Shown in pieces: positions 23,118-48,621 of a stretch of 64,000 nt of DNA. The notes below the pieces were generated by a model. The model ran no database searches and was not told the DNA's origin. It was given only the letters and a program-made list of their open reading frames with translations. Both the position numbers and the translations under genes were made by a program. Source of the DNA: Candidatus Lindowbacteria bacterium RIFCSPLOWO2_12_FULL_62_27 (lineage in GTDB: Bacteria; Lindowbacteria; 2-12-FULL-62-27). Numbering within the stretch: the first letter of the stretch is position 1; each line of letters opens with the position of its first letter. The stretch covers positions 228,561 to 292,560 of the forward strand of contig MFPR01000001.1 in NCBI GenBank assembly GCA_001784175.1, in the 5' to 3' direction.

Positions 23118-23121
23118 GATC

Positions 23122-27302: not shown

Positions 27303-27817
27303 AAGTCCGACCCGCCTTCGGGTTCGCGCCGGTCTTCCTGCGCCATCCGCGCCGCCAGGCCGCTGCCGCGCGGGCGGCGATGGCCGTCGCCGTCGGCGAA
27401 TTCGGAAGCGTCGTCGATCGGCGCCTGCGGGGACGGTTTTTTCGGATCCAGCACCGCCCGTATTTTTCTGACGAGGGTGTTCGAATTGAACGGCTTGGCC
27501 AGGTAATCCGCCGCGCCCGCCCGGACCGCGGCCATGACGGTGTCGCGGTCGGCGACGGCCGTCATCATCACGACGGGGATGTGGCGGGTGGTCGGATTGG
27601 CATGGAGGCGCCGGCAAACTTCCAACCCGTCCAGGCCGGGCATTTTGACGTCCATCAGCACCAGCGCCGGATTGAACTCGGCGACGTGTTCAAACGCCTG
27701 CTGCCCGTCATCGGCGGAGTCGGCCTCGAACCCGGCCTGGCTGAGCAACAGCACTGTCGTGATCCGCACCGACATCTCGTCGTCCACCACCAAAATCCGG
27801 CAGGGATCGGCCGTCAT
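27299..27817 (-). CDS. Single-domain response regulator
   Basis: A receiver domain fills residues 1-125 (acidic pair DDE near 12-14, phosphoacceptor in LVLMDVKMPGLDG, Thr in MMTAV and Lys in YLAKPFN). The ~45-residue tail is basic and acidic and disordered. There is no output domain, so it probably works by protein contact, for example in a phosphorelay with the flanking hybrid kinases. It overlaps both neighbours by 4 nt (GTGA downstream, ATGA upstream), showing tight co-expression with the DUF342 gene and the CHASE kinase. Confidence 0.9.
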   Translation of the reverse strand: MTADPCRILVVDDEMSVRITTVLLLSQAGFEADSADDGQQAFEHVAEFNPALVLMDVKMPGLDGLEVCRRLHANPTTRHIPVVMMTAVADRDTVMAAVRAGAADYLAKPFNSNTLVRKIRAVLDPKKPSPQAPIDDASEFADGDGHRRPRGSGLAARMAQEDRREPEGGSDL

Positions 27818-30393: not shown

Positions 30394-30508
30394 CACCGCC
30401 CCCCCCCACCCCTCAACTACTTGGAGATCAGAAGGTTGGGATTTCATGATCATAAATCCAAAATGTGCCAGGGGCGACATATATATATGGAGAGGAGGCT
30501 TCCGATTT

Positions 30509-32746: not shown

Positions 32747-34290
32747 AAATCCACCGACATTTTAAACCGCAGGAATTCCTCGTGGCTGCGGTTCAGGCCG
32801 TAGGCCGGGCCCGGGACGAACATGCCGAGCTGCAGGAGATAGCGGAGGTCGGCGAGAGGTTTCCAGGAAAGTTGCGCATCGTATTCGTGGCCGATGTTGT
32901 CTCCGAGTCCGCCGGGCGACACGTTGTACACCGGGTCGGACGTCGGGCCGGCTTCGTCTTCGGCGAGGAAATAATAGTAGGTCAATTGCAGGGTGCAGTC
33001 GTTGAGCGCCATGTGCGAGCTTCGGGCAAACGGCCGGACGCTGAATCCCGATTTGAAGGCGTGCAGGTTCGCCAGGGCCGGCGCCAGCGCCACGCCGAGA
33101 TTGAGTCCGCCGAATCCCCGGAACACCGTGTCCCGCCCCGCCGTCGATCCGCCGCTCGAGGAGAACACGTTGCCGATCCGGTCCCGGTCACCCGACGCGC
33201 CGGCAACTTCGGCGAAAATCGAGGGCGCAAGATCCGTGCCGCCCACAAAAAACTGCATCCCGAGATCGTAGGCCGTCGCGTAGACGCCGATCCGCTGCGT
33301 CGTGCCGAGGTGCCCGTAGGTCAGGCCCCGCTCGAGGACAAACTCGCCCCAGATCGACAGGCGCGAAAGGGGGCTGGCCTCCATCGTGAAGCCGTAGTAG
33401 CGCGAGTCGAGCTGGTGGCGCTGGCCGTTCACGGCGAAATCGAAGTTATGATCGAGGTTGAACAAGAGGTAGGCCCCGAAGGACTGGCCGCGGCGAATCT
33501 GATAGCGCGTTTCGAATCCGTAGAATTGCCGTTTCGTGCGGCCGGGGCCCGGCGCGAGGAAATCGAGGTTGTCATCGCCGGGATTCTGCCGGAGCGCCAT
33601 CGCCCGGAGCGACCACCGGCCCCGGTCGGCCTGCCACGACAGGCCGTCCGCCGTGAGGCCGAACGCGAGGCCGCGCCCGACCGACACAAAGTGCCGGCCG
33701 AGCCGCAGGCGGTGGCGGAAATGCGCGGAGAAGGCGCGTTCCCAGTAGAGCATTTCGATTTTGGGCTGGATAAAATCGCTGCCGCGGATCGCCGGAGAAT
33801 TTTTTTTCGTCTCGGTGTATCGCGCGGCCGACCGGAAGTAGAATTTGCTGGTCCGCGGCGCGTTCTGGACCAATGCGTACACCCGGCCGTCATACACCCA
33901 CGCGTGGTCTTCCGCGTCGGCCACGGTGTCCTGCCGGTCGTTGTCGTCCGAGGTCGTATAGGTCGTCGAAATCGTCGAGCCGATGTCGAGGAGCCATCCG
34001 CGCCGCCGGCTCGCCCCGAGCCCATCCTCGGTCCGCCGCAACTCGTCCACGGATTCGACCCGCTCGCGCCGCCGGTCCTCGCCCGACATCTGGGCGGCCG
34101 CCGGGGCGGGCAATAGGCAGAAGACAAGAAGCAACAGGTAAGCGGGGAACGGTACCCCCCCTCTCCCGCCGTAGGCGGGAGAGGGTCGGGGTGAGGGTGG
34201 CAGTCTCCGGTCGTCGTCATCTGCCCCCCTCACCTCAATCCTCTCCCCCCTTCGGGGGGAGAGGAGGTGAATAGACAGATCAATTCTCAT
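32743..34290 (-). CDS. Outer-membrane beta-barrel protein (AlgE/alginate-export-like)
   Basis: A REP-encoded N-terminal extension (IHLLSPRRGER ... SPRPSPAYGGRGG) precedes a signal peptide (AYLLLLVFCLLPAPAAA). The rest is rich in alternating aromatic and polar residues of barrel strands and ends in FLRFKMSVDL, a typical C-terminal strand. Spacing and motifs (LRLGRHFVSVGRGLAFGL, RLSIWGEFVLERG) resemble the alginate-export porin family. It probably passes a polymer or small molecules through the outer membrane. ATG 34290 overlaps the M6 protease end by 11 nt, and its 3' end overlaps the FecR gene. Confidence 0.75.
   Translation of the reverse strand: MRIDLSIHLLSPRRGERIEVRGADDDDRRLPPSPRPSPAYGGRGGVPFPAYLLLLVFCLLPAPAAAQMSGEDRRRERVESVDELRRTEDGLGASRRRGWLLDIGSTISTTYTTSDDNDRQDTVADAEDHAWVYDGRVYALVQNAPRTSKFYFRSAARYTETKKNSPAIRGSDFIQPKIEMLYWERAFSAHFRHRLRLGRHFVSVGRGLAFGLTADGLSWQADRGRWSLRAMALRQNPGDDNLDFLAPGPGRTKRQFYGFETRYQIRRGQSFGAYLLFNLDHNFDFAVNGQRHQLDSRYYGFTMEASPLSRLSIWGEFVLERGLTYGHLGTTQRIGVYATAYDLGMQFFVGGTDLAPSIFAEVAGASGDRDRIGNVFSSSGGSTAGRDTVFRGFGGLNLGVALAPALANLHAFKSGFSVRPFARSSHMALNDCTLQLTYYYFLAEDEAGPTSDPVYNVSPGGLGDNIGHEYDAQLSWKPLADLRYLLQLGMFVPGPAYGLNRSHEEFLRFKMSVDL
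34154..34272. repeat. Composite REP element, type B
   Basis: Hairpin CTCTCCCGCC-GTA-GGCGGGAGAG and hairpin CCTCTCCCCCC-TTC-GGGGGGAGAGG flank a less conserved core. The element sits exactly at the junction between the M6 protease stop and the barrel gene signal peptide, and it is translated as the barrel protein N-terminus. Confidence 0.85.
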
Positions 34291-36799
34291 AATACGCGTA
34301 GACAACCTTTCGGCCTGATGAAGACGAGATCAGCCAGTCTCGCAGGTCTCGGAGGAAACCAAACGGCGGCCGATTCGCGCCGGGCCACCAGCGTCGTATC
34401 AAGCACGCCGCCGGATACGCCGCCAAGCCGCCGCTTCCGCCGCTCGCCGTGAAGAGAAACGCCCGGAACTCGCCCGGCGCCGGCGTGTACACGTACTCGG
34501 GCGACGCACGAAGATCCACGACCGCGCCCGAGACGAGATCCTGCAGCGTCAGCGGAATGTCCGGCGGGATGGATTCGATCCCCTGCGCGCGGATCGTGAC
34601 CTCGCCCTCGGCGTCGGTGCCGACCTTCAGGCGCCACGATCGCGCGTCTGTCGGCGCGCGGTACACGGCGCTGTAATGCTCGCCGGCCTCCTCCCATCCG
34701 ACCCAGATGCCTGTGGGGGCTGAGGGCGCTTTGGGCGCGCGCGAGGACCGGCTCCGGACGCCGGCCTCCGTCTGCCGGTTGGCGTCGCCCCGTTGATTGA
34801 CGACTTCGAACCGCACAGACCAGTCATACGCTCCGGTAGCCAAAGAGGGCGCGGAAAATCCGGCGCCCGGCGGCGCGAGCGACGCATACGGCGGGACCAG
34901 CATGGTGCAATTCTGCGCGGCGTACAGCCACAGGCCCTTGAACGGCTCCAGTGCGGGGTTCGTCACCGTGGCGCCGGCGAGGCTGGGGCCGTGGATATAT
35001 CCGGTTTCGGGTTTGTAGTAGTAAACCTCGCCGTCCCGAAGCAGGCCGTTGGTGATCGCGGCCGAATAGGTGTAGGTCGATCCGGCGGTCGAGACGAATT
35101 TCAAATCTTTCACGAGAATTTTAAATTTAAACGGATTGCCGATCTGGTTCCATCCGGAAAACAGCGCGACCGGCACCGTGTCGTAGCGTGTCGTATCGCT
35201 GAGGGCCGAGGTCTGCGCGGTTTCCTGAATGTCCTTCGACGTCGAATCGGTCAGTCTGGCCCAGTAGCCGTATCCGGCCGAGAAGGCGGAGGTCAGGGAC
35301 AGCGCGGAATATTTTTGCAGGATCGGATCCTCCTCGCCCGAGGAAACCTCGGGGTTCCAGCGAAAGAGCTGGGAGGCGGAGAAGGTGACGCCGAATTCGT
35401 TCAAATCGCGGACAAGGCTGTCCGCCGTGTATGTGATTTTGTGCAGGGGAAACGGGAGAGAAAACAGGGCCCACTGATCGGGCGCCGTCAGAAAGGAGTC
35501 GACCGGCGCCTTCACATCCGCAAAATCGACCAGCAGCGTGAGTTTGCTGTTCTGCAGCGTGATGTACTTGATCGAAAATCTCGCCGCTGCGTCGCTGTTG
35601 GGCCGGGAATTCGGCGTCGTATTGTCGGCAAAGGCCGTCTTGCCTTTCGCGCCGGGCCACGGATGGGACGAGGTGGCGACATAGGACCCGCTGAGCTTGC
35701 CGATGTCGGTCCCGTCGGCCTCCTCAAGGTCGAGCCGCCGGAACTTGACGACCGTCGTGTTGTTGACGTCGTTGTTCGTGATCGTTCCCGTATCCTGGTC
35801 AATGTGCCAGATGAGCAGCCCCACGCCCGCGGCCGTGTCGGGATCGCCGGCGCCCGGGTAGCGGAACTCGAGCAGAAAATATTCGGACGTGTCGCCGGCC
35901 GCGGCGAGGATTTTATAGATGCGGGAGTCAGATTCGACCGGGTTCATCGTGACGTAGGTTGTCGTGTCGATCTGCACGGTATCGCCCCAGTTCAAGTACT
36001 CCCGGCTCCACGGGTCCATCCACGTCGGGCTGTCGCCGAGAATGGGCGCGGCGGCGCCCTGAAAATTTCCGTTGCCGAGGAGTGTCCAGTCGCCATTGCC
36101 GCCGTCGGCCGACGTCGTGTTGTAGAGGTCGGGCAGGCCCAGCTCGTGGCCGAATTCGTGGCAGAACGTGCCGAAAAAGCTGATCGAAAGCGACGAGGTG
36201 AGCTTGTAGGTTTCGAGCGGCGTGATGATCGCGTAGCCCACGGTCTCGTTGGTCTGCGTGTCCGTGAACGGCATGGACGAAATGTTCTGCACCTTGGTCT
36301 GAAGGTCTCCGGTCTTGCTCGTAATGGATTTGCCGGGCCCAGCATGAAAGAGCGTCACGCTGTGGTACTGGGAAAAGTCGACGTAGGTGTCGACGCGCGC
36401 CAGGACTTCCCGCACAAGCAGGATCAGGCCGTTCGTATCGGTGCGCATCGTGTAACCGGCCTTCGTGTCCGACACGGTCACCATGAGCGTATCGAAGACG
36501 GTGTAGGCCAACTGCATTTTTCCGTACGAGATCCGCCGGTAAAACGTGTCGGCGCGGTCGAGCAGGACGCGCGCGTAGTTGCCGAGCGTGGTCGTATCGG
36601 CATGAAACACGCCGGTGTCGGCCGTCAGAGACGTCGACGCCTGCTGGAACTGCACGAGGAACGCGGCGATCCTGGCGGTCCCGGCGGGCGTGACATTGGC
36701 AAACCCGGGCGCGGCCTGAGCGGCGCAGACCGGCCACAGGCAACAGGCGATCGGCCAGAGCAAGATCGTGCGGAACCCCGTCCTGAAATGCTTCGACAT
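34280..36799 (-). CDS. Secreted M6-family metalloprotease
   Basis: A signal peptide (FRTILLWPIACCLWPVCAAQA) starts at ATG 36799. The zinc motif HEFGHELGLPDLYN is the HExxHxxGxxD form of family M6 (immune inhibitor A-like) peptidases. C-terminal parts are beta-sandwich-like. The tail PAACLIRRWW ... FLRDLRDWLISSSSGRKVVYAYYEN resembles a C-terminal sorting-type motif (Cys-Phe/Leu-Ile, then LRxxRDxxL and GRxxVxxYY). It ends right at the REP element, which may have truncated it. The gene starts downstream of the repeat protein terminator and heads the M6-barrel-FecR group. Confidence 0.87.
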   Translation of the reverse strand: MSKHFRTGFRTILLWPIACCLWPVCAAQAAPGFANVTPAGTARIAAFLVQFQQASTSLTADTGVFHADTTTLGNYARVLLDRADTFYRRISYGKMQLAYTVFDTLMVTVSDTKAGYTMRTDTNGLILLVREVLARVDTYVDFSQYHSVTLFHAGPGKSITSKTGDLQTKVQNISSMPFTDTQTNETVGYAIITPLETYKLTSSLSISFFGTFCHEFGHELGLPDLYNTTSADGGNGDWTLLGNGNFQGAAAPILGDSPTWMDPWSREYLNWGDTVQIDTTTYVTMNPVESDSRIYKILAAAGDTSEYFLLEFRYPGAGDPDTAAGVGLLIWHIDQDTGTITNNDVNNTTVVKFRRLDLEEADGTDIGKLSGSYVATSSHPWPGAKGKTAFADNTTPNSRPNSDAAARFSIKYITLQNSKLTLLVDFADVKAPVDSFLTAPDQWALFSLPFPLHKITYTADSLVRDLNEFGVTFSASQLFRWNPEVSSGEEDPILQKYSALSLTSAFSAGYGYWARLTDSTSKDIQETAQTSALSDTTRYDTVPVALFSGWNQIGNPFKFKILVKDLKFVSTAGSTYTYSAAITNGLLRDGEVYYYKPETGYIHGPSLAGATVTNPALEPFKGLWLYAAQNCTMLVPPYASLAPPGAGFSAPSLATGAYDWSVRFEVVNQRGDANRQTEAGVRSRSSRAPKAPSAPTGIWVGWEEAGEHYSAVYRAPTDARSWRLKVGTDAEGEVTIRAQGIESIPPDIPLTLQDLVSGAVVDLRASPEYVYTPAPGEFRAFLFTASGGSGGLAAYPAACLIRRWWPGANRPPFGFLRDLRDWLISSSSGRKVVYAYYEN

Positions 36800-36835
36800 T
36801 TGCTTATTGTATATATCGGAAAAAAGCCTCAAAAA

Positions 36836-36874
36836 AACAAAAAAACCGGAGGCCCGCTTCTTCGCGGACCCCCG
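36836..36874 (-). terminator. Rho-independent terminator of the repeat protein gene
   Basis: On the minus strand CCGGGGGTCCGC-GAAGAA-GCGGGCCTCCGG (36845-36874) is followed by TTTTTTTG and a second T run. This is a strong hairpin with U-tract, 34 nt after the stop of the long repeat gene and before the M6 protease gene. Confidence 0.9.
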
Positions 36875-36907
36875 GTCGATGTATCTTGAAGGTACCCTAG
36901 TTCAGCC

Positions 36908-39900
36908 TCAAACCGCTTCCATCGGAATCGGATACGGCGGCGGCGGCGCCAGCGGCGCCACGTAACCGCACCCGTCCGGCTCACAGCCGGCTACAAACGT
37001 GTTGGTGCCTTCCGGCGGAATCGTACACTGACTCGTCGCCGGATCGTAGGTCGTGCCCGGCGGGCAATCGATCATCACGCTGCCCGGAGGCGGCGGCTCG
37101 GGAGATCCCGGCGGAGGCGGCGGCGCGTCCGGTGGAGGTGGCGGCGCCACTTCCATGCCCGGCGGCATCACCGCGTACTGCGACTCGTTCGGAATCGTCA
37201 CCGTTCCCGAGGTGGCATCGACTTCCGATCCCGGCGGGCAGGTCCATGCGACGGTTCCGTCCGGATTCGCCTGGACATCCGGCGGCAGGACCGCCGACTG
37301 GTACTCGTTCGGAACCGTCATCGAGCCCTCGCCAAACTCCGTGCCCGGCGGCGCCACAAACGTCACGGCGCCGTCCGGTCCCACCGCCACGTTCGGCGGC
37401 AGAACTTGGTACGTCTGGTCCGGCGGGATGACGCAGGTGCCTGTGGCCGGATCGTACGTCGCGCCCGGAGGGGGCGTAACGGTTACCGATCCGTCCGGAT
37501 TGCATGAAGCTCCGTCCGGCATCACCATCGCCGAGTACTCCTGCGGGATCGTGAACGTGTTGGAATTGGCGTCAAACGTGGTGCCTTCCGGCATCGCGCA
37601 CGTCACCGTGCCGTCCACGGGACTGACCGTGATGTTCGGCGGCAGTACCGCGCCGGCCTCGGCCGGCGGCAGAACGACCATGGGCGGCGGAGGCGGCGCC
37701 CCCGGCGGAACATCCGGCGGAGGCGGAAACTCCGTTCCCGGCGGCATCGTGCAGGTACACGTGCCGGCGTTCGGATCGAAAGACATCGGCACCGTCGCGT
37801 ACGTCTCGCCGAAGGTTTCGGGCGGCATGACGCACATGGGCGGCGGCGGGGGAGGCGGCTCCGCGCCTGGCTCGAGCGGAGGCATGGGCGGCAGAGGCGC
37901 CATCTGGACGCCGTCGGCCGGTGTTCCCACATCCACCGCGATCGCATACGCGGGCGGCGGCGGGGGCGCTTCTCCCGGAGGCATATCCAGGGGCGGCGGC
38001 GGCGGAGGCGGCGCGTAACCCTCGACGTCTCCGGCCGGCACCAGTTCCCCGGTCCCGGTGTTCTCGCAAATCATCGCCGTGCCTTCCGGCGGCATCGTGA
38101 ATTCGCCGGAATTGGCTTCATAGGTACAGCCCGGCGGAACTTCGCAGGTGCAGGACCCGTCCGGATTCACCGTGACTTCCGGCGGCATCACCATCGGCGT
38201 GTACTCGTTGGGAATGGTGCAGGTCCCGGCGTTCGGATCCACCGTCCATGCGGCGTCCCCGGCCGTCGGATAGGCCATCGTGCAGGTACCGGCGTTCGGG
38301 TCGAACTGCATGACCGGCGCGATATCGCCCGGCGGGGGCAACGGAGCTCCCGGCGGAATCGTCTCGCATCCGGTGATGGCGGCCTGAACTTCCGATGTCG
38401 GCGGGATCGCAAACGTCCCGGCGTTCGGATCGATGTTCGTACACTGGATCGTCAGCGCGCCGTCCGGCTGAACCGTACAGCCTTCCGGCATCACAGCGGG
38501 CGCGCCTTCGGGCGGAACCATGAACGTTCCCGCATTGGGATCCATGGTGGTTCCCTCGGGACACGTCATGGTCATCGTCCCATCGGGATTGGCCACCACG
38601 CCCGGCGCGGGTTCGGCCATGTAGGGCGGGCAGTCCGGAGCGGGGCAGGTGATCGTTCCGTCCGGGGGATTCATCGTCGCTTCCGGGGGACACTCGCACG
38701 TGACGCTCCCGTTGGCGTTGATGTCCACGTAAGGCGGCACATAATCCGCAGTGGCATCGGGCGGAATCGTCACGGTGCCGGCGGCCGGATCATACTGGGT
38801 GCCCTCGGGGGCCACGCAGTTGATCGCGCCGTCCGGCGCATAGGTCATATCCGGCGAGGGCAAGAACATCCCGCCGGCGCCGTCGGTCGGCATGGTCATC
38901 TGACCGGCGTCCGGATTGTACGTCGTCTCGGGCGGCATCTCGCAGGTGCAACTGCCGTCCGGATTGACGGTCGCATAATCCGGGCAGACCATCTCGGAGC
39001 CTTCCGGCGGCAGCGTGAACTCGCCGGAGTTGGCGTCGAAGGTGGTTCCTTCCGGACATGCAAGGGTACACGATCCGTCCGGCGCGATGTCGACGCCCGG
39101 CGGAACGGTGGGACAATCCTGAGGCGGATAGTTCAACGATCCCGCGTTGGGATCATAGACGGTGCCCGGAGGACACTCCACACCGATGTTGCCGTCCGGC
39201 ATGACGGTCGCGTCGACCGCGGGCGCGAACGTATCGATCGCGTCCTGCGGCGGCATCGTCACCGTGCCGGCTTCTGGATTGACTTCACACGTCGGCGGCA
39301 GCGCGCAGGTCACCGCTCCGTCCGGAGCGACCGCCACGTTGTCGGGACAAACCATGCTCGCCTCGGCGGGCGGCAGCGTGACGGTCCCGGCATCGGGATT
39401 CATCTCGCCGCCCGGAGGCAGGCTACACATGCAGTCGCCGGTCGGCATCACCTGAACGTCCGGCGGCGTCACTGCGTACGCGCCATCCGGCGGCAGCGTG
39501 AACTCGCCGGAGTTGGCCTCGAACGTCGTGCCTTCCGGCATCGCAACCGCAACCGACCCGTCCGGCATCGGAGCGCATCCGTCCGGCATACAGGGTGGGG
39601 GCGGCGGGGGCGGAACGCCTGCGTCGGCCGGAGGCGGGGGCGGATATTCCACCGTGCCTCCGTACGGAGCGTCCGGCGGCGCGGGCGCGACTACCGCGTC
39701 CGGCGGCAGGGGCGCCACGACGTCACCTGTCGGCGTCACCGTCGTCTCAGGCGGCAACACCATCGCCGCTTCGCCGGCCGGGAACGTCACCACGGGCGGC
39801 GGGGGCGGAACATCGGGCGGCAGATACGGCGGCGGGGGCGGGGGTTCCTGGAAGGTACACCCGTCCGGGCAGCTCATGACCACCGAGCCGTCCGGCATCG

Positions 39901-40312
39901 GGGCGAGGCCTTCCGGCATCACCGCGTCCGCCGATTCGTATGGAACCGCCAGCGCTCCCGCGTTGGGGTCATACGTGCAGTCCGGCGGGCATGTCATCAC
40001 AGCCGCGCCGTCCGCGTTGTACATGCAGTCCATCGGGTAGGCATCCACCGGCGGCGGGGGCAGTGCGCCCTCCACCATGGTGGCGTCACCGGTCGCGGGA
40101 ATAAACGTGTCCGCGCCGGCGGTCGCGCCGCTGTCGTACTGCGTCATGTCGTACGACGTCGACGTGTCGGCCGTCGATTCGGCATCGGCGGTCGTGTCGG
40201 TCGGCGCGTCCATCGGGATTGCCCCTCCGAGCGCACCGGGCGCTACAATCTCGTCCAGCTTCTCGACTCTGACTCCCTTCTTCTTACCTTTACCGGGATC
40301 CTTTGGAGCCAA
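36908..40312 (-). CDS. Long Pro/Gly/Asp/Cys repeat protein with leader-like N-terminus
   Basis: The 1134-aa protein starts with TTG at 40312, supported by AGGAGG 7 nt upstream. The first 30 residues are basic (PKDPGKGKKKG), then VRVEKLDEIVAPGALGG, resembling a peptide leader that ends in Gly-Gly. There is no ordinary signal peptide or membrane helix. From about residue 80 it is made of some 20 units of ~40 aa with consensus PDGxxxCxxPPGTTYDPNAGTxTIPPExxxxVxPP. Units are interrupted by polyproline blocks (PPPPPPYLPPDVPPPPP). Cysteines recur at one position of the unit. I know no characterised family. It diverges from the PqqD-M50-HlyD operon and is the likely exported substrate. A surface or fibre role is inference. 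Confidence 0.85.
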   Translation of the reverse strand: MAPKDPGKGKKKGVRVEKLDEIVAPGALGGAIPMDAPTDTTADAESTADTSTSYDMTQYDSGATAGADTFIPATGDATMVEGALPPPPVDAYPMDCMYNADGAAVMTCPPDCTYDPNAGALAVPYESADAVMPEGLAPMPDGSVVMSCPDGCTFQEPPPPPPYLPPDVPPPPPVVTFPAGEAAMVLPPETTVTPTGDVVAPLPPDAVVAPAPPDAPYGGTVEYPPPPPADAGVPPPPPPPCMPDGCAPMPDGSVAVAMPEGTTFEANSGEFTLPPDGAYAVTPPDVQVMPTGDCMCSLPPGGEMNPDAGTVTLPPAEASMVCPDNVAVAPDGAVTCALPPTCEVNPEAGTVTMPPQDAIDTFAPAVDATVMPDGNIGVECPPGTVYDPNAGSLNYPPQDCPTVPPGVDIAPDGSCTLACPEGTTFDANSGEFTLPPEGSEMVCPDYATVNPDGSCTCEMPPETTYNPDAGQMTMPTDGAGGMFLPSPDMTYAPDGAINCVAPEGTQYDPAAGTVTIPPDATADYVPPYVDINANGSVTCECPPEATMNPPDGTITCPAPDCPPYMAEPAPGVVANPDGTMTMTCPEGTTMDPNAGTFMVPPEGAPAVMPEGCTVQPDGALTIQCTNIDPNAGTFAIPPTSEVQAAITGCETIPPGAPLPPPGDIAPVMQFDPNAGTCTMAYPTAGDAAWTVDPNAGTCTIPNEYTPMVMPPEVTVNPDGSCTCEVPPGCTYEANSGEFTMPPEGTAMICENTGTGELVPAGDVEGYAPPPPPPPLDMPPGEAPPPPPAYAIAVDVGTPADGVQMAPLPPMPPLEPGAEPPPPPPPMCVMPPETFGETYATVPMSFDPNAGTCTCTMPPGTEFPPPPDVPPGAPPPPPMVVLPPAEAGAVLPPNITVSPVDGTVTCAMPEGTTFDANSNTFTIPQEYSAMVMPDGASCNPDGSVTVTPPPGATYDPATGTCVIPPDQTYQVLPPNVAVGPDGAVTFVAPPGTEFGEGSMTVPNEYQSAVLPPDVQANPDGTVAWTCPPGSEVDATSGTVTIPNESQYAVMPPGMEVAPPPPPDAPPPPPGSPEPPPPGSVMIDCPPGTTYDPATSQCTIPPEGTNTFVAGCEPDGCGYVAPLAPPPPYPIPMEAV

Positions 40313-40501
40313 TCTTCCACCTCCTCAAATGTGATTGTTGAAGGACATCGAAACCTCGATCGTCCCCTCCCAATCCCCCTTGTTGCCACTCGTATTTTTA
40401 TCCGCAGTCACGCGGAATATCAATGAATTCGTTGTCAATATTGGCACTTCCGGAAAGTAGAGTCTGACACAGAATGCGTGTGTCCAAAGACACAGGCAAA
40501 A

Positions 40502-40517
40502 TGTGAATAAATTCACT
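40502..40517. promoter_or_regulatory. CRP/FNR-type operator
   Basis: TGTGAATAAATTCACT matches the CRP consensus TGTGA-N6-TCACA in 9 of 10 core bases. The divergent operon encodes a Crp/Fnr regulator (42825-43556), so autoregulation is plausible. Confidence 0.6.
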
Positions 40518-40626
40518 TTTGATTATCCACACATTGTGGATTCTGTTGCAACACAAATGTTATCAATTGGTTACAAATCAAGCACGCGCGCCCCGCAACG
40601 CCGCCCAGGACACTTGTTGTTTTGTC

Positions 40627-40655
40627 TTGACACATCCCCTTTAAAATTGGATTAT
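40627..40655 (+). promoter_or_regulatory. Promoter of the PqqD-M50-HlyD operon
   Basis: TTGACA (40627-40632, perfect) is followed by a 17-nt spacer and GATTAT (40650-40655, 4 of 6). The predicted start of transcription (~40662) lies 2 nt before the ATG at 40664, so the message would be nearly leaderless. Confidence 0.5.
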
Positions 40656-40663
40656 ATAGGGTC

Positions 40664-42823
40664 ATGCCCGAAGCAGCCCAGAAACGGCTTGGACCCAAAC
40701 TTCGAGACGACCTGATCCTGGTCGAGAAGATTCGCCAAGGCAAGCGGCTCCTTGTCATCAAGGACCCGCTGAAAGTTCAGTACTACCAGTTCGGCGAGCT
40801 GGAGATCACGCTCTTTCGCCTGCTGGACGGAAAGACGCCCCCGCCGAAGATCGTCGAGGAATTCAACAAGACGCACCCGGACGCCGAGATGGCGATGGAC
40901 GAATTGAAGGAATTTCTCGGGGAGATCGAGAAGATGCACCTTCTGGAAAAATCGGCCGCCGAACGCAACGCCCTCCTGATTGAACGCCTCAAAGAAGAAC
41001 GCAAGAACAAATTGATGAGCAAAAAGGGATCGATCCTCTTCAAGCGCTTCCCCCTGGTCGACCCGAACGACTTTTTCGACCGGATCCATCCGTACATCGC
41101 GTGGCTGTGGAGCGTGCCGAGCGTGATTTTCCAGTGTCTGGTGATTGTGGCGGCGGGGGTGGCCCTGGCGTACAACTGGGACCGGTTCATCGACGGCATC
41201 GAGGCGGTGTTTTCGTTCGGCGAGCAGACAGCGTCCAGCTTTCTGTGGCTGTGGCTGACGATCATCTGCATCATCATTTTTCACGAGCTGGGGCACGGCC
41301 TGACGTGCAAGCATTACGGGGGCGAGGTGCATGAGATGGGGTTTCTCCTGCTGTTTTTCCAGCCGTGTTTTTACGCGAACGTGACGGACGCCTACATGTT
41401 TTCGAACAAGAACCACAAGATGTACGTGACGTTCGCGGGCATCATCGCGGAATTTTTCGCCGGCGCCATCTTCTGCTTCCTGTGGCTCCTGACCGATCCC
41501 TCGACGGGCTTCAACGCCATCTGCTACCAGGCGATGACGGTCTGCAGCGTCTCGTCGGTCGTGTTCAACCTCAATCCCCTTCTCAAGTACGACGGTTACT
41601 ACGCCTTTTCCGAATGGGTGGACCTGCCGAACCTCAAGCAGAACTCGGGGGACGTGCTGGAGAAGTGGCTGCAGAGGATCTACAAGCGGAAGGAGGACAT
41701 CGAAGAGGACGAATTGACGATGCGGGAGCGGCGGATTTACATCTGGTACGCGATCATCTCCAACCTTTTCATGATCTCGATGCTGACGGGGCTTTTTTTC
41801 ATGATCAAGGACATCTTCTTCGAGGCGGCGCCGGAACTCGGGTGCCTCGCGTTTCTCTTTGTCGTCGGGAAACTCCTGAACAGCCAGATTTCCGCGACCG
41901 TGAAATTTGTCAAGGATTTCTACCAGTACGAAAGCGCGGCCTTCGGCGCGATCAAAACGCGGTTCGTGGCGCTGGCCCTCGTCGCGTTTCTGGTGGGGCT
42001 CTGTTTTACGGTGCCGTATCCGATCGTGGTGGAGAAACAGGTGACGATCGAGGCGAGGGACCGGTGGGTGGTGCGCGCGCCGGTGGAGGGATTTCTGGAG
42101 GAGATGTACGTGAAGAGCGGAGACGAGGTGAAAAGCGAGCAGCCCCTGTTTCTGATCGCGAATCCCGAAAAGAGCCGCAAACTGGCGGACCTCGCGGCCG
42201 AGGGGCCGAAATACCAGATGCAGCGCGACCAGGCGCTCGCCACGGACGAAGTCGGCAAGCTGGCCGACATTCAGCTTCGCGAATCCCAGACGGCGGCCGA
42301 GCGCAGGGCGATTTTGCGGGACCTTGAAAAAATGAAGACCTACGCGCCGGCCACCGGCCTCTTGCTGACGACCGGCGTGGAGGAGCTGAAAGGCAAGTAC
42401 TACAAGGCCGGCGACAAGATTCTGGAAATCGTGTGTCTCCGCAATCTCTATTCGGTGGTGGAACTCGAAGAGCGCGAGGCGGGGGAGGTGCGGGACCAGA
42501 AATCGGCGGCGCGGATGGGCGGCGGGGTGGAGCCGACGACGGCGCGAGTGAAAGTGAACGCGATGCCGGGCCGGCTGTTTGAGGCGCGGGTGGGCGAGGT
42601 CGATTCGTTTGCGGACACCGGCGGCGTCACGCGGAAGTTCCGCGCCAAGATCGTCATCCCCAACCCCGACTTCGACTACGGCGTCAACATCCTCGCCTCC
42701 GGCCAGATGCTGCGGCCCGGCATGACCGGCATGGCCAAGCTCGACATCGCGACCGCCACACCCGCCGGCGCCATCGGCCGGTGGCTTGCGGGATTTTTCA
42801 GAATGGATTTGTTCATGTACTGA
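40664..42823 (+). CDS. PqqD-M50 metalloprotease-HlyD fusion exporter protein
   Basis: Residues 10-95 form a PqqD-like winged-helix peptide-recognition domain (LRDDLILVEK ... FRLLDGKTPPPKIVEEF). Residues 145-450 are a polytopic membrane part of site-2 protease (M50) type, with HELGH at 207-211 and NPLLKYDGYY at 304-313 (Asp310 the likely third zinc ligand). A last helix (FVALALVAFLVGLCFTV) leads into a C-terminal HlyD/biotinyl-lipoyl adaptor (RWVVRAPVEGFLEEMYVKSGD). PqqD domains bind RiPP leaders, M50 proteases cut within the membrane, and HlyD spans the periplasm. Together this suggests leader recognition, cleavage and hand-over. It is the first gene of the export operon. No ABC ATPase is fused or adjacent. 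Confidence 0.88.
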   Translation: MPEAAQKRLGPKLRDDLILVEKIRQGKRLLVIKDPLKVQYYQFGELEITLFRLLDGKTPPPKIVEEFNKTHPDAEMAMDELKEFLGEIEKMHLLEKSAAERNALLIERLKEERKNKLMSKKGSILFKRFPLVDPNDFFDRIHPYIAWLWSVPSVIFQCLVIVAAGVALAYNWDRFIDGIEAVFSFGEQTASSFLWLWLTIICIIIFHELGHGLTCKHYGGEVHEMGFLLLFFQPCFYANVTDAYMFSNKNHKMYVTFAGIIAEFFAGAIFCFLWLLTDPSTGFNAICYQAMTVCSVSSVVFNLNPLLKYDGYYAFSEWVDLPNLKQNSGDVLEKWLQRIYKRKEDIEEDELTMRERRIYIWYAIISNLFMISMLTGLFFMIKDIFFEAAPELGCLAFLFVVGKLLNSQISATVKFVKDFYQYESAAFGAIKTRFVALALVAFLVGLCFTVPYPIVVEKQVTIEARDRWVVRAPVEGFLEEMYVKSGDEVKSEQPLFLIANPEKSRKLADLAAEGPKYQMQRDQALATDEVGKLADIQLRESQTAAERRAILRDLEKMKTYAPATGLLLTTGVEELKGKYYKAGDKILEIVCLRNLYSVVELEEREAGEVRDQKSAARMGGGVEPTTARVKVNAMPGRLFEARVGEVDSFADTGGVTRKFRAKIVIPNPDFDYGVNILASGQMLRPGMTGMAKLDIATATPAGAIGRWLAGFFRMDLFMY

Positions 42824-42824
42824 G

Positions 42825-43556
42825 ATGCCGCCCCAGAAAATCGCGCACCGGTTCGGCCAGAGAAAAACGATGGCGGCCCCGGTTTCCTCCTTTGCGCTCC
42901 TCTCCCAGCACCCCATCTTCTCCAAGATCCCGGAAGGGGTCCGCCGGGAGCTGGTGGCCAGCGGGAGCCTCGTGCGTATACCGCAGTATTCGCTGCTGTT
43001 TCACCAGGGCGATGAGGTCACGGCCGCCTATCTCGTCATGGAGGGCCTCGTCAAAATTTACAGGAACATGGGCGAAGCCGACCGCACACTCGGATTTATC
43101 TACAAGTCGGGCATGGTCGGCTTGGACGCGCTCCACGCCACGGACGGCCATCCCTACAGCGCCCAGGCGCTGGGCTCGGTCGTCGTCTGCGCCTTTCCCA
43201 AGGAGGCGATCCAGTCGATTCTGGCGCGCACGCCCGAGTTGGGGCCGCTGCTTCTGGCTGAAGTCACGCGCCAGTGGGAGGAGGCGCTGCACGAGCAGGA
43301 CATCCTGACGCGCCGGAGCACGAACGGCCGGATCGCCGACAAGATTTTGCGGCTGGCCGAAAAGTTCGGCCGGGTCGAGGCCGCGGGGACGGTGCTCCTG
43401 CTGAAGATCACCCAGCGCGAGCTGGCCTCCATGGCCGGCACCAACCGCGAATCGGTCTGCAAGGCGCTCGTGACCTTCAAGCGGGAGGGCTCGATCGACA
43501 TTCAGAACAAGCTGATCGTGGTCAAGAACAAAACCAAACTCGCCGCTTGGCCATAA
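42825..43556 (+). CDS. Crp/Fnr-family transcription regulator
   Basis: The ATG at 42825 is 1 nt after the exporter stop. The 243-aa protein has a cyclic-nucleotide-binding-type beta-barrel (FHQGDEVTAAYLVMEGLVKIYR), a dimerisation helix and a Crp-type helix-turn-helix (ITQRELASMAGTNRESVCKAL). The Cys residues typical of FNR iron-sulphur binding are absent, and the phosphate-binding cassette is not clear, so the ligand is unknown. It probably binds the CRP-like site at 40502-40517 and controls this locus. Confidence 0.9.
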   Translation: MPPQKIAHRFGQRKTMAAPVSSFALLSQHPIFSKIPEGVRRELVASGSLVRIPQYSLLFHQGDEVTAAYLVMEGLVKIYRNMGEADRTLGFIYKSGMVGLDALHATDGHPYSAQALGSVVVCAFPKEAIQSILARTPELGPLLLAEVTRQWEEALHEQDILTRRSTNGRIADKILRLAEKFGRVEAAGTVLLLKITQRELASMAGTNRESVCKALVTFKREGSIDIQNKLIVVKNKTKLAAWP

Positions 43557-43581
43557 GCCCGATTCTGCCGATATTATTCAT

Positions 43582-45222
43582 ATGCGGACTGCCTTTTTTC
43601 GGACAGCCTGTTTCCTGATCTGTCTGATAACTATTCACCTCCTCTCCCCCCGCAGGGGGGAGAGGACGAGCGAAGCTCGGGTGAGGGGGGTTGATTGGCG
43701 CCGAGCTAAACCGGCCACCCTCACCCCAACCCTCTCCCGCCTATGGCGGGAGAGGGGAGGGTTCCAAACGCCTCCCGCCCACGCCGAGGGGACGAGGAGA
43801 CTCTCCATCACCGACGCGCTGAAGCTGGCGCAGGAGCGGAACCCCACGTTTTCAAAGGCCAGCCTAACCTACGAATCGTCGCGGCTGACGTACCTCAAGA
43901 CCCTCCACGGGCTGGGCTGGGTCGAGTCGTTCACGGCGTCCAGCGACTACAAGCGGGACGAGTCGTTCAGCTATTCGAAATATTTCAACACGACCGGCGA
44001 ACGCGTCAGCGCGACCCGGAGCCGGACCCTGAGCAACACGACGTCCTGGAACCTCAAACGCACGTTCGGGTCGGGCATGGCCACCGACTTTTATTCCAAG
44101 CTCACGACCAGCGACGGATCCAGCCGGTACAACGCGTTCAAGGGCGCGCTCGCGGACGACGCCAGCAGCAGATACAAATACATCACGCAGAAGTTCAATC
44201 CCGAAGTCGGCGTGAATCTCACGCTGCCGATCATCGGCAAGGACAAAAACAGCACCGACTACAGCCGGAAACAGGCGGACGCCTCGTGGGCGCAGGCCGA
44301 GATCGATTTTGAGGAGGCCAAAAAAAGCCTCGTGCTGTCCGTCCGGCAGGGATACTTTGATCTCCTCAAGTACCGGCGGATGGCCGCGCTTCGGAAAGAG
44401 GTGCTGGCCGAGGCCGAGGAACGGCTGGAGGTGACCAAGAAGCGGCTGAGTGTCGGGATGACGACCGAGATGGACGTGTCGCAGGCGGAGCTGACGGTTC
44501 TGAGAAACAGGGCGGACCTCGCCGACGCCGTTTTTTCGGAACAGCAGGCCCAGAGCCGTTTCAACAGCCTGATCGGCCTGCCGCTGGACGACTACTACGA
44601 CCTGACCGACGGATTTCCCCCGGAGCCGGTCCGCGAAGTGACGATGAAGATGGTGCAAAGCCGTGTGATTTCCGCGAGCGGGGATTTGCGGCGGATGAAC
44701 AAGGACATCGAAGTTTCGACGATCTCCGTCGAGCAGGCCAAGTCGAAGATGCGGCCGGCCTTCGCGTTCAAATCGAATCTTGCGCTCGAGGGCGAGCGGC
44801 GGGACCTGCCGAGGGTCCTGCGCAATCCCGAGGAGAAATATTCCTTCACGCTGACCTACGATTTTCCGTTCGGCGAAAAGGTGACGCAGAAGGCGGACTT
44901 GGAGCTGGCTGAGGCGGGCCTGAGCACGAAGGTCCTGGAGCGGGACGAACTGAATCAGAGCCTGATCCTCGACGCGACCGAGACGTACCAGGAGCTGTTG
45001 AAGGTCCAGCGGCGCCTGGCGATCGCGCGGCAGTCGCGGGAGGTGTCGGAACGGAGTCTTCGGATCGCGCAGGCGAAGTTTGACGAGGGCCGGGGCGAGA
45101 TCACCGACGTCATCTCCGCCAAAACGTCCCTCGTGAACGCGCAAGTCGAAGAGCTGAACAACCTCTACAGTCTGGCCGTGGCGACGGCCGAACTCGAGAT
45201 GCTCACCGGAGAGTCGATCTAG
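43582..45222 (+). CDS. TolC-family outer-membrane channel with REP-interrupted signal peptide
   Basis: The 546-aa protein has the OEP-type alternation of strands and long helices (QARQGY... SVRQGYFDLLKYRRMAAL; SLVNAQVEELNNLYSLAVATAELEMLTGE). The signal peptide core MRTAFFRTACFLICLIT is separated from PPAHAEG by a REP element translated as IHLLSPRRGERTSEARVRG ... LSRLWRERGG, about 43 residues. Without it the signal peptide would be normal. It is presumably the exit duct of the export system. It lies between the Crp gene and the GAF-HlyD gene. Confidence 0.88.
   Translation: MRTAFFRTACFLICLITIHLLSPRRGERTSEARVRGVDWRRAKPATLTPTLSRLWRERGGFQTPPAHAEGTRRLSITDALKLAQERNPTFSKASLTYESSRLTYLKTLHGLGWVESFTASSDYKRDESFSYSKYFNTTGERVSATRSRTLSNTTSWNLKRTFGSGMATDFYSKLTTSDGSSRYNAFKGALADDASSRYKYITQKFNPEVGVNLTLPIIGKDKNSTDYSRKQADASWAQAEIDFEEAKKSLVLSVRQGYFDLLKYRRMAALRKEVLAEAEERLEVTKKRLSVGMTTEMDVSQAELTVLRNRADLADAVFSEQQAQSRFNSLIGLPLDDYYDLTDGFPPEPVREVTMKMVQSRVISASGDLRRMNKDIEVSTISVEQAKSKMRPAFAFKSNLALEGERRDLPRVLRNPEEKYSFTLTYDFPFGEKVTQKADLELAEAGLSTKVLERDELNQSLILDATETYQELLKVQRRLAIARQSREVSERSLRIAQAKFDEGRGEITDVISAKTSLVNAQVEELNNLYSLAVATAELEMLTGESI
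43631..43757. repeat. Composite REP element, type B, inside the TolC signal peptide
   Basis: Hairpin CCTCTCCCCCC-GCA-GGGGGGAGAGG and hairpin CCCTCTCCCGCC-TAT-GGCGGGAGAGG flank a core with GGTTGATTGGCGCCG. It is nearly identical to 32612-32730 in the opposite orientation and read in the same frame, giving the same peptide (RGVDWRRAKPATLTPTLSRLWRERG in part). Confidence 0.88.
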
Positions 45223-45223
45223 G

Positions 45224-47629
45224 ATGGCGGCCGACACGCAGACGGCGAACCTAGATGAGCTGCAGGCCAAGCTCGAGCGGCTGACGCTCCTTTACGAAAT
45301 CAACCGCGATTTCCACTCCACGCAGGACCTCGCGGAACTCATGCCGAAAGTCTTCGAGGACGTCCTCAAGGCGATGAACTGCGAGGGCGGGTCGCTGTGG
45401 ATGTGGGATGACGATGCGAAGATGATCACCTGCGAAAACGCGTTCGGGCCGGGCAGCGAAAACGTCAAGGGCTTGAAGCTTCCGAAGGGCACCGGGATTG
45501 TGGGCTGGGTGATCAACATGAAGAAGCCGACGATCGTGAAGGACGCGACGGCCGACAAGCGATTTGCGGGCACGACGGACCAGAAGACGGGCTTTGTCAC
45601 GAAATCGATGATCTGCGTGCCGCTCCTGACGCAGGCCGGGGTCCTGGGCGCGATCCAGGTCCTCAACAAGAAGGGCGACACCGGCCAGTTCAACGACGAG
45701 GACCTCGAGCTTTGCAAGGTCATGGCCGAAAACGCGGCCGGCGCCATCGTCAACGCGCGGGCCTACGAGTCGGAAAAGACGGCGCGGGAGCGCATCCAGG
45801 TGTTCAACGAGTTCAACAAGGCCCAGAGCACCACGCTCGATTTGGACAAGCTGCTCGACATCATCCTCAAGCGCGTCGTCACCATCCTCGACGCCGTCGC
45901 CGGCAGCATCTGGCTCCGGCAGGGCGGAGACCTCCTCGCCAAGGTCGCGGTCGGGCCGACCGCCGGGAAGCTGGTCGGCGCCAAAGTTGGGGTCGGCACG
46001 GGGATCGTCGGGAGCGTCGTCCAGAAAAAAGCGCCGGTGATCGTGGAAGACACCTCGAAATCGGAATTGTTTTCCGGCAAGGTCGACGATGCCACCGGAT
46101 TCAAGACCAAGTCCCTCATTACCGTGCCCCTCATCCACCAGGACGAGGCGATCGGCGCCATCCAGATCATCAACAAGAAAAAGGACGACGACTGGTTCAC
46201 CAAGGACGACATGGACCTTCTGTCGAGTCTCGCGGGCCTGTCGACCAGCGCCATCAAGAACGCGACGCTGTACGAGGTCGAGCGCAAGGCGAAGGACCTG
46301 TCGATTTTGCTGGACATCTCGAAAGAGGTCTCGTCGAACCTCGACATGGACAGCGTCCTTGTGACGGTCGTGAACCTCACCAACCAGGTGGTGCCCTACG
46401 AGCGGGCGGCGATGTTCGTGAAGAACGAAAACAAATACGATTTGCGCGCGGTGTCGGGCGCCGCCAAGATCGACAAGGCCGACCCGGCGATCATGGCGCT
46501 CGACAACGCGGCCGACGCGATCGACAAGGACCTGTACATCGCCGACGCGGAGAAGTATCTGGCGGAGGGCGGGGGGATTGCGGCGGTCAAGGACTATCTG
46601 AAACAGGCCGGCATCGCGTCGTTTTACGCGCGGGTCCTGGCCGACGACCAGGGACCGCTGGGCATGATGACGATGGAGAGCAAGAACAAGGATTTCGTCC
46701 AGCCAGCGCAGATGGAGATGCTGACGATCCTGGCCAACCAGATCACCGTGTCGATCCGCAACGCCGAGCTGTACAAATCGGTCCCGATGTTTTCGGGCTT
46801 TGGCAAGGGCGCGACCCTCAAGAAGGTGCTGGTGGGCGGCGCGATCGCGCTGGGGGTTCTGGCGGGGCTCGGGGCGCTTTTGTGGTTTCCGAAAGTCGAG
46901 CACCGGCTCGGCGGGCAGGTCGACATCGAGCCGATCGTGCGCAACAAAATTTACGCGAAGGAAAGCGGGATTCTTGACAAGGTCCACTTCCGGGAGGGCG
47001 ACACCATCAAGGTCGGAGACCTTTTTGCCGAACTTTCCCAACAGGACATGGAGCAGGAGAAACTGAAGATCCAGACGAAACGCGAGATCGCCCGCCAGTC
47101 GTATCTGCGGTCGGTGGGCCTGTCGAACATGGCGGAGGCACGGATGAAGGAGGCCGAGATCGCGCAGGCCGACCGCGAGATGTCGAACCTGTCGAACAAG
47201 ATGGAGAACACGCGGATCATCTCGCCGCACGAGGGCCAGGTCCTGACGGCCGACCTGCCGCAGAAGGTCGGGGAAAACATCAGCCGGGGCGCGGTCGTCG
47301 GCGATGTCGTCGATCTGTCGAAACTTCAGGTCAAGTTCGGCGTGCCGCAGGAGCAGATCCGGTACGTCGCGGCGGGGCAGGAGATCCGGTTCAAGGTCTC
47401 CTCCTACCCGACGCGGACCTACACGGTCAAGATCGAGCGCATCGGCATGGAAGGCTCGACCCAGGAGGACAAGACGATCTACAACGTCTACGCGACCATT
47501 GAGAACGCCGACCGGACGCTCAAGGCGGGCATGTCGGGCCGCGGGAAGATTCTGGCGGGCAAACAGCGCCCGTTCCAACTCCTGATGGAGGAACCGGTCC
47601 ATTGGATGCGGATGAACTGGCAGTGGTGA
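45224..47629 (+). CDS. Triple-GAF-HlyD fusion adaptor
   Basis: The 801-aa protein has three GAF domains in the first ~525 residues (each starting with L-x-x-L-x-x-[IL] helices such as LLYEINRDF and LLDISKEV). One membrane helix (LVGGAIALGVLAGLGALLWF) and a HlyD adaptor follow (IYAKESGILDKVHFREGD, coiled coil, ISPHEGQVLTADLPQKVGENI). The GAF part is cytoplasmic and could sense a small molecule or redox state. Its fusion to an adaptor suggests that export is gated by a cytoplasmic signal. ATG lies 1 nt after the TolC stop. There is no recognisable pump domain. Confidence 0.9.
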   Translation: MAADTQTANLDELQAKLERLTLLYEINRDFHSTQDLAELMPKVFEDVLKAMNCEGGSLWMWDDDAKMITCENAFGPGSENVKGLKLPKGTGIVGWVINMKKPTIVKDATADKRFAGTTDQKTGFVTKSMICVPLLTQAGVLGAIQVLNKKGDTGQFNDEDLELCKVMAENAAGAIVNARAYESEKTARERIQVFNEFNKAQSTTLDLDKLLDIILKRVVTILDAVAGSIWLRQGGDLLAKVAVGPTAGKLVGAKVGVGTGIVGSVVQKKAPVIVEDTSKSELFSGKVDDATGFKTKSLITVPLIHQDEAIGAIQIINKKKDDDWFTKDDMDLLSSLAGLSTSAIKNATLYEVERKAKDLSILLDISKEVSSNLDMDSVLVTVVNLTNQVVPYERAAMFVKNENKYDLRAVSGAAKIDKADPAIMALDNAADAIDKDLYIADAEKYLAEGGGIAAVKDYLKQAGIASFYARVLADDQGPLGMMTMESKNKDFVQPAQMEMLTILANQITVSIRNAELYKSVPMFSGFGKGATLKKVLVGGAIALGVLAGLGALLWFPKVEHRLGGQVDIEPIVRNKIYAKESGILDKVHFREGDTIKVGDLFAELSQQDMEQEKLKIQTKREIARQSYLRSVGLSNMAEARMKEAEIAQADREMSNLSNKMENTRIISPHEGQVLTADLPQKVGENISRGAVVGDVVDLSKLQVKFGVPQEQIRYVAAGQEIRFKVSSYPTRTYTVKIERIGMEGSTQEDKTIYNVYATIENADRTLKAGMSGRGKILAGKQRPFQLLMEEPVHWMRMNWQW

Positions 47630-47640
47630 CCAACTACCTG

Positions 47641-47687
47641 CCACCCTCACCCCGACCCTCTCCCGCCGGAGGCGGGAGAGGGGGGAG
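47641..47687. repeat. Half REP element, type B
   Basis: CCACCCTCACCCCGACCCTC then CCGCCGGAGGCGGGAGAGG forms a single hairpin between the GAF-HlyD gene end and the next adaptor. Its 3' end GGGGGGAGAG acts as a Shine-Dalgarno sequence for the GTG at 47695. Confidence 0.8.
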
Positions 47688-47694
47688 AGCCGGC

Positions 47695-48621
47695 GTGTTT
47701 CGCACGGTCGTGCCCGGACTCTTGTTCGCTGCCCTTTACCCATCATTACCCGTTACCCGGTGCCAGGCGGAGGTCTACACGAACGGTCTGACGATGATCT
47801 ACCGGGAGGTTTCGGTGAGCCCGAGGTCCTCGGGCGTGATCGAGAAGCTCTACGTGCAGGAGGGCCAGTGGGTGTCGGAAGGCGACGCGCTGGGGGAATT
47901 GGACGCGACGAAGGAAAAAATGGATTTGCTGTTGACGGACATGGAGCTTGAGGAGCTGCAGCTTTCTCTGGAAAAAATGAAGCTGCCCCTGCGGCCGAAA
48001 GAGATCGAGAAAATGGAGATTGACCTGAAAAAGACCCAGCTCGCCGAGGACAAGACCAAAACGGAGCTTGAGCGCACCAAGCGCCTGTATGATCAGAAGG
48101 CGGTATCGGACAAGGATGTCGCGGACGCCAAAAACGCGGCCGAGGCCGCCGCGCTCGCCACCAAGGCGCAGAAACTCTCGCTGGAACTCGCCAAGGAGGG
48201 GCCCCGCAAGGAGGAGATCATGCTTCACGAAATGAAAATCGCGCAGAAACTCCACGCGCAGGACCAGAAAAAGCTCGCGCTCGAAAAAATGACCGTCCTC
48301 TCCTCCGCCGCCGGCGTGATCTCGAAACTCTACTACGCCGCCGGCGAAAACGCGGCCGCCGGCCAGCCCTTCTGCGACGTCCTCAACACCGACTCGCTCT
48401 ACGTCGAACTCAATCTGCCCGTGTCGGAGATCAACCGGATCACGGTCGACCAAAAGGCGACCGTGACGGTTCCGTCGGTCACCTCAAAATCCCATCCGGG
48501 CCGCGTCGTGTTCATCAGCCCCACCGTCGATCCGGCCAGCCGGACGTTCAAAATCCGCATCGAAATCGCCAACCCGCAGCGCGCCCTCAAACCGGGGCTC
48601 TTCGCCACCGTTTCGATTTAG
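47695..48621 (+). CDS. HlyD/RND-type periplasmic adaptor
   Basis: The GTG at 47695 (VFRTVVPGLLFAALYPSLP) is chosen because of GGGGGGAGAG upstream and the signal-peptide-like start. An ATG at 47602, inside the previous gene, would add 31 REP-encoded residues. The protein has a lipoyl-like part (SPRSSGVIEKLYVQEGQWV), a coiled-coil hairpin rich in Glu and Lys of about 120 residues, and a beta-barrel domain (LYVELNLPVSEINRI; IEIANPQRALKPGLFATV). It is the last gene of the export operon. Confidence 0.9.
   Translation: MFRTVVPGLLFAALYPSLPVTRCQAEVYTNGLTMIYREVSVSPRSSGVIEKLYVQEGQWVSEGDALGELDATKEKMDLLLTDMELEELQLSLEKMKLPLRPKEIEKMEIDLKKTQLAEDKTKTELERTKRLYDQKAVSDKDVADAKNAAEAAALATKAQKLSLELAKEGPRKEEIMLHEMKIAQKLHAQDQKKLALEKMTVLSSAAGVISKLYYAAGENAAAGQPFCDVLNTDSLYVELNLPVSEINRITVDQKATVTVPSVTSKSHPGRVVFISPTVDPASRTFKIRIEIANPQRALKPGLFATVSI

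Follow-up and report, generated by a model that had tools for sequence, protein, structure and literature searches.

A divergent locus of six genes was found in the window, which is the whole stretch of 64,000 nucleotides that was analysed. One gene encodes a long acidic repeat protein. It faces, across 351 bases, an operon (40664-48621) with the order M50-HlyD fusion, Crp/Fnr regulator, TolC, triple-GAF-HlyD and HlyD. As shown in Table 1, all six genes were located. Pfam matched M50 and HlyD in the first operon gene, Crp in the second, OEP/TolC in the third, three GAF domains and HlyD in the fourth, and HlyD in the fifth. Coordinates and Pfam agree with the arrangement described in an earlier, sequence-only reading, in which a divergent repeat protein faced an operon of this composition. 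That reading had also reported no ABC or RND pump gene and no ATPase in the operon, and we likewise found no ABC, RND or other ATPase gene in the locus and no ABC-like gene within 8 kb. PADLOC gave no match. The Crp/Fnr gene was also found at the sister locus L016 and at a planctomycete locus (L108). OEP genes are also present at L109-L112 by Pfam, and L110 has the identical triple-GAF-HlyD architecture. In the Bdellovibrionota loci, OEP, HlyD and triple-GAF-HlyD genes were confirmed with Pfam.

Table 1. Features of the proposed export locus and its divergent repeat gene, in window coordinates.
Feature	Position	Strand	Basis or remark
Terminator-like hairpin with T run	36844..36877	-	directly 3' of the repeat-protein stop codon
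Acidic repeat protein, presumed cargo	36908..40312	-	1134 aa; repeats of ~40 residues; net charge -135; colinear homologues at L016, L108-L111
N-terminal leader motif VEKLDEIVAPGALGG, LEERIAP class	40223..40267	-	motif scan, alignment, profile
Divergent intergenic region, common to repeat gene and operon	40313..40663	.	holds three palindromes
Palindrome TGTGTCCAAAGACACA	40479-40494		divergent intergenic region
Palindrome GTGAATAAATTCAC	40503-40516		divergent intergenic region
Palindrome ATCCACACATTGTGGAT	40525-40541		divergent intergenic region
Promoter-like TTGACA-17-GATTAT	40627..40655	+	just before the operon start codon at 40664; consensus match only
RRE(PqqD-like)-M50 S2P protease-HlyD adaptor fusion	40664..42823	+	719 aa; Pfam, predicted fold, alignments
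RRE part of fusion	about 40688-40951	+	predicted fold
RseP-like core of fusion	about 41219-41809	+	predicted fold
MacA/MexA-like adaptor part of fusion	about 41945-42787	+	predicted fold
Crp/Fnr-type regulator	42825..43556	+	Pfam; frame open from 42786, with 42825 the likelier start
TolC-family outer membrane channel	43582..45222	+	OEP, E 1e-38
Triple-GAF, one transmembrane helix, HlyD adaptor fusion	45224..47629	+	Pfam
Second, free-standing HlyD-type adaptor	47602..48621	+	Pfam; true start uncertain

Two palindromes of the shared intergenic region, ATGTGAATAAATTCACTT and ATCCACACATTGTGGAT, match ATGTGAAAAAATCACAT and TCCACAATATGTGGA in the sister genome (G002), and their order is kept. In G002, the first of the two is a Crp-type palindrome, TGTGA-N6-TCACA-like. 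The Crp/Fnr protein of the operon may be the natural candidate to bind these conserved palindromes, serving both transcripts. An interspersed palindromic repeat of the CTCACC..CCTCTCCCCCC..GGGGGGAGAGG type was seen at 43640-43764, 47636-47690, 32675-32729 and 34219-34273. In TolC, HlyD and two further open frames it lies in frame close to the 5' end, so that start positions annotated at these places would mislead, and the true starts of TolC and of the last HlyD are uncertain. Terminator-like sites in the region overall were no more frequent than in shuffles, and the hairpin behind the repeat gene is well placed. Just past this hairpin lies an M6-type peptidase gene (34280-36832), and behind it a gene at 32743-34305 with a match to the alginate-export outer membrane family. 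Because of the hairpin, the M6-type peptidase gene is probably a transcription unit apart from the repeat gene. Unrelated to this locus, the region 21498-30480 encodes a FapA-like protein and three large histidine kinases, all with receiver domains and two with CHASE domains.

The structure of the fusion protein was modelled by AlphaFold2 with 37 relatives (mean pLDDT 86.9), and the model was compared with solved structures. For residues 9-96 the match was the RRE protein TbiB1, solved together with its leader peptide, over 84 of 88 residues (Z 11.1, rmsd 2.3 A). Residues 186-382 matched RseP (Z 10.5), and residues 428-708 matched MacA, MexA and AcrA (Z up to 15.9). The N-terminus is thus predicted to fold like a leader-binding RRE, a winged-helix, PqqD-like domain. 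PqqD itself (PF05402) gave a Pfam match in 6 of 20 homologues and none in the fusion protein of the window. In the HExxH and NxxPxxxxDG motifs, H207, E208, H211, N302, P305, D310 and G311 are invariant in 38 sequences. H207, E208, H211, D310 and G311 are invariant also in a second alignment of 14 sequences. Both motifs lie within the transmembrane core, as in a site-2 protease (M50). These fold matches and intact motifs bear out the PqqD-M50-HlyD domain assignment made from the sequence earlier. The HExxH motif has been lost from a distant fusion protein (L019), and proteolysis is therefore not a universal trait. The best NCBIfam matches for the RRE-M50 part were the daptide metalloprotease and YydH/LiaK models (NF041824, NF058609), both below cut-off.

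The repeat protein starts with MAPKDPGKGKKKGVRVEKLDEIVAPGALGG at a TTG start codon that is preceded by a good ribosome-binding site. Its repeat unit is 40 residues long, with the pattern xMPxxVTVNPDGSVTxxCPEGTTYDPxAGTxTxPPEGAD, and proline makes up 22% of the protein. A Sec-type hydrophobic N-terminus is absent, the maximal 19-residue mean within the first 80 residues being 0.71. The relative in G002 is 52% identical, colinear and adjoins the same genes. Colinear relatives were also found in Planctomycetota (L108; 30% identity, E 1e-93 with composition adjustment) and Bdellovibrionota (L109-L111; 25-29% identity, E about 1e-50). The repeat proteins are all strongly acidic, with a net charge of -135 to -296, and are without Sec-type signals. 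The product, at 1134-2079 residues, is kept over its whole length. No Pfam or NCBIfam family, including RTX and other named repeat families, matched the repeat protein above cut-off. Foldseek with a repeat fragment found no match among solved folds at E<=0.001, the query being a low-confidence model (pLDDT 67).

The leader-like N-terminus noted in the sequence-only reading proved to be real, since VEKLDEIVAPGALGG follows from the well-supported TTG start and is kept in G002 together with the same divergent locus. The window motif KLDEIVAPGALGG aligns with KKLEERIAPGMLGGG, KKLEDRIAPGMVGGG and KKLEERIAPGMVGGG of Bdellovibrionota (L109-L111) and with KKLEDRIAPAMMGGM of Planctomycetota (L108). Further leaders are EELEERIAPS in Phycisphaerae (L163), EELEERIAPA (G344, from a phylum with 3 genomes only), ETLEERIAPT (G086), QSLEDRIAPS (L137) and VLEPRIAPA or QLEPRIAPA in Verrucomicrobiota (L133). 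In an acidobacterial locus (L138, 3933-5184) the leader EELEQRIAPG occurs in four small consecutive genes, and the planctomycete G572 (C14:7152-8212) has five small genes in tandem. Both tandem sets lie directly before the fusion gene, and each gene encodes an LE(E/Q/P/A)RIAP leader with a short Gly/Asn/Pro-rich tail. In G008 and G295, a divergent small gene repeats EELQEKEAPRRAP. At three loci (L017 13186-13551, L050 from 11551, L113 9929-10504), small proteins carry the leader-like motif itself in tandem (GEELQEKEAPRRAP; ARKAPF).

LEERIAP-type N-termini lie beside the fusion gene in several phyla, among them Planctomycetota, Bdellovibrionota, Acidobacteriota and Verrucomicrobiota. A scan of the first 60 residues of open frames with a strict motif gave 17 matches in 13 loci, within 5 kb of the fusion gene. 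No match fell in the remaining 560 kb farther from that gene or in 215 kb of unrelated loci, and shuffled flanks averaged 0.3 matches. The motif had first been noticed on six loci; the other 12 matches, in eight loci, came from records fetched later. Three related loci (L018, L054, L058) have no nearby leader gene. Two observations had been named as speaking against the sequence-only reading, namely fusion genes routinely beside ABC exporters and an N-terminus that varies among such loci. Neither was borne out. Within 8 kb, an ABC-like gene was present at none of the 15 leader loci and at 3 of the 84 remaining loci, and one RND gene was found among these 84. The leader motif is conserved among loci of this kind.

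We examined the co-occurrence of leader and fusion protein in genomes held out from the motif. With a profile built from 16 leaders, 16 of 343 Planctomycetota genomes were leader-positive at E<=0.01, with the motif at the true N-terminus in most. A few of the weakest, namely G418, G435, G605 and G515, probably arose by chance. A genome-contig search with the single window protein had given no match, and the family alignment was used as query instead. At E<=1e-30, the fusion protein of the leader branch was present in 13 of the 16 positive and 8 of 54 negative genomes (p 1.6e-6). At E<=1e-140, the protease of this branch was present in 10/16 positive and 1/54 negative genomes (Fisher p 2e-7, or p = 8e-7 without G408, which is the L108 genome and not independent). 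Many of the leader genomes are incomplete assemblies. Leader and fusion genes lie close together in G474, G572, G640 and G545, and G415 and G477 have dispersed leader proteins of about 700-1500 residues. In the window genome, the leader profile matched the repeat protein only, which fits a one-cargo system. These results suggest that the leader tag likely identifies the presumed cargo of the fusion loci.

A previous report described loci that combine M50-HlyD, GAF-HlyD and HlyD genes, and in some cases an OEP gene, with a short secondary SecA_DEAD; no cargo was known for these loci (Kamneva, Poudel and Ward 2015; PMC4452313). SecA was proposed as the ATPase and the M50 protein as the inner membrane pore, and the broader biological role was stated as unknown. 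The main text of that report does not mention PqqD, a leader or LEPR. A search of the open-access literature gave nothing else relevant on the leader motif or RRE-M50-HlyD fusions. The window locus shares the M50-HlyD, GAF-HlyD, HlyD and OEP genes and, like the 2015 loci, has no ABC transporter. Since the module as such was published in 2015, the earlier description of a candidate undescribed system was too strong; what is new is the cargo signal. In contrast to the 2015 loci, the window has no secondary SecA, in locus or genome, and has an identifiable presumed cargo with a conserved leader.

SecA-type loci were recovered in G230, G261, G266 and G358. The window genome (G000, 94% complete) and G002 each encode a single SecA, which is canonical, and lack a short one. 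The same holds for G008, G295, G011, G344, G298, G086 and G159 and for the leader-bearing planctomycetes G408, G550, G572, G415 and G459. The exceptions are G441 and G457, with several M50-family matches each, in which short SecA is also present. In a tree of 99 fusion proteins, of a quick kind without bootstrap and with some unsafe long branches, leader-bearing and SecA-neighbouring rows clustered separately (2 changes each versus 9.5 in shuffles). The window groups with G002, one planctomycete and four Bdellovibrionota in a clade of seven rows (support 97), six of which have the leader. The window belongs to a separate, SecA-less branch of the machinery described in 2015.

The SecA-bearing sister branch includes giant proteins with a similar N-terminal motif, LEPR-x-LL (LEPR-XLL, NF012209) as compared with LE(E/P)RIAP. 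Beside SecA-type fusions, the giants of G230 carry RIEALEPRLMMS (5974 aa) and ESLEPRLMMD (about 7260 aa), and that of G261 carries QLESLEPRVLLS (about 8200 aa). Giants of 6,000-8,000 aa were seen beside SecA-type M50-HlyD genes at L059 (from 13521), in G230 (C4 and C5) and at L101 (from 6291). In G027, a LEPR-XLL gene comes after a SecA gene. The repeat protein of the window has no NF012209 match at its N-terminus. A genome-wide search with NF012209 at E<=1 gave mostly noise (145/386 genomes, with matches in controls too), and use was restricted to matches at E<=0.003, mainly those in giant frames. The form LEPRIAP of L133 bridges the two motifs. From this intermediate we infer that LEERIAP and LEPR-XLL may be two versions of one tag, with fewer cases behind this than behind the leader itself. 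G245 and G027 have LEPR proteins without the fused protease, which shows that LEPR-XLL also occurs outside this system.

Taken together, the locus is probably a dedicated, leader-directed, TolC-linked secretion system for the acidic repeat protein. The repeat protein would be made with the N-terminal leader KLDEIVAPGALGG of the LEERIAP class. The cytoplasmic RRE of the fusion would bind this leader, as the predicted fold and the conserved leader suggest. The S2P core in the inner membrane would receive the protein and probably cut off the leader close to the conserved glycines that follow AP. Judging from the adaptor fold and the gene content, three adaptors (the fused one, the free-standing HlyD and GAF-HlyD) may connect to TolC, and the protein would exit or be displayed on the cell without a Sec signal. 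The cytoplasmic GAF domains and Crp/Fnr may tune activity and expression. Type I secretion (HlyB-HlyD-TolC) likewise combines an HlyD-type adaptor with a TolC-type channel, and we propose that acidic repeat proteins are here, too, exported in one step and without a Sec signal. However, the window locus has no ABC transporter, and its signal is N-terminal and leader-like, not C-terminal. Double-glycine/PCAT bacteriocin exporters also couple leader recognition and cutting to export, whereas the protease of the window is S2P-type and adaptor-fused, there is no ABC ATPase and the leader is of the LEERIAP class.

A 1134-residue chain would have to cross the inner membrane at an S2P protease, either through it or alongside it, and no ATPase is encoded, which counts against export. 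As a guess, the membrane potential may pull the very acidic chain outward, or canonical SecA may help. In the sister loci, short SecA lies beside the same fusion, so SecA is part of, or recruited to, the machine in that branch and is its candidate ATPase; the window locus encodes none. It is thus possible, although we consider it the less likely course, that canonical SecA/SecYEG or an ATPase elsewhere in the genome carries out inner membrane transport while the operon recognises and trims the protein and hands it to TolC. The single canonical SecA of the window genome would be available for this. However, the cargo has no Sec-type hydrophobic segment, and no locus link to Sec was found.

The RRE fold and the NCBIfam matches below cut-off are also compatible with a RiPP-like pathway. 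The leader genes would then be precursors of modified peptides, and the RRE-M50 part would act in maturation as a protease that releases the product, a peptide, from the repeat protein. At 54-87 aa, the tandem leader peptides of L138 and G572 would fit such precursors, as would the tandem 15-residue repeat peptide of L017. However, the window locus has no modifying enzyme gene and the long product is conserved from end to end, and we regard this pathway as unlikely. The daptide and YydH/LiaK metalloproteases belong to modified-peptide pathways, and their NCBIfam models have no HlyD fusion. Site-2 proteases in general have regulatory roles, and the GAF domains and the Crp/Fnr gene could point the same way: GAF would sense a signal, the leader protein would be an anchor or signal that M50 cuts, and TolC would work with the adaptors in small-molecule efflux. 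This is very improbable, as the adaptors are fused to protease and GAF, the locus has no RND or ABC small-molecule pump and a repetitive acidic protein would be odd as a regulator. That the divergent repeat gene is a chance neighbour and not cargo is strongly disfavoured, because gene adjacency, the sole initial observation, is now joined by a leader and repeat protein accompanying the operon in the window lineage, Planctomycetota and Bdellovibrionota and by promoter palindromes conserved in the sister genome.

The secretion reading has consequences beyond the window. The leader is the first evidence found for a cargo signal of the 2015-type machinery. A conserved tag that co-occurs with the fused protease gives a testable cargo to loci left without cargo or purpose in 2015, suggests a function for the LEPR-XLL giants of the sister branch and allows further cargo to be found from sequence alone. 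The SecA-less version raises the question of what powers export. We tentatively propose an ATPase-free type of secretion in which the leader-binding S2P-adaptor would be the inner membrane component and LEERIAP/LEPR-XLL an unrecognised N-terminal secretion signal across several phyla. In relatives of G008, genes read from the sequence as those of a STAS-like protein, an RsbW-like kinase and a GAF-SpoIIE-type phosphatase flank the system (L017 12486-15333 and 4622-5971, L117 4221-5946), which suggests that these flanking genes may provide another mode of control.
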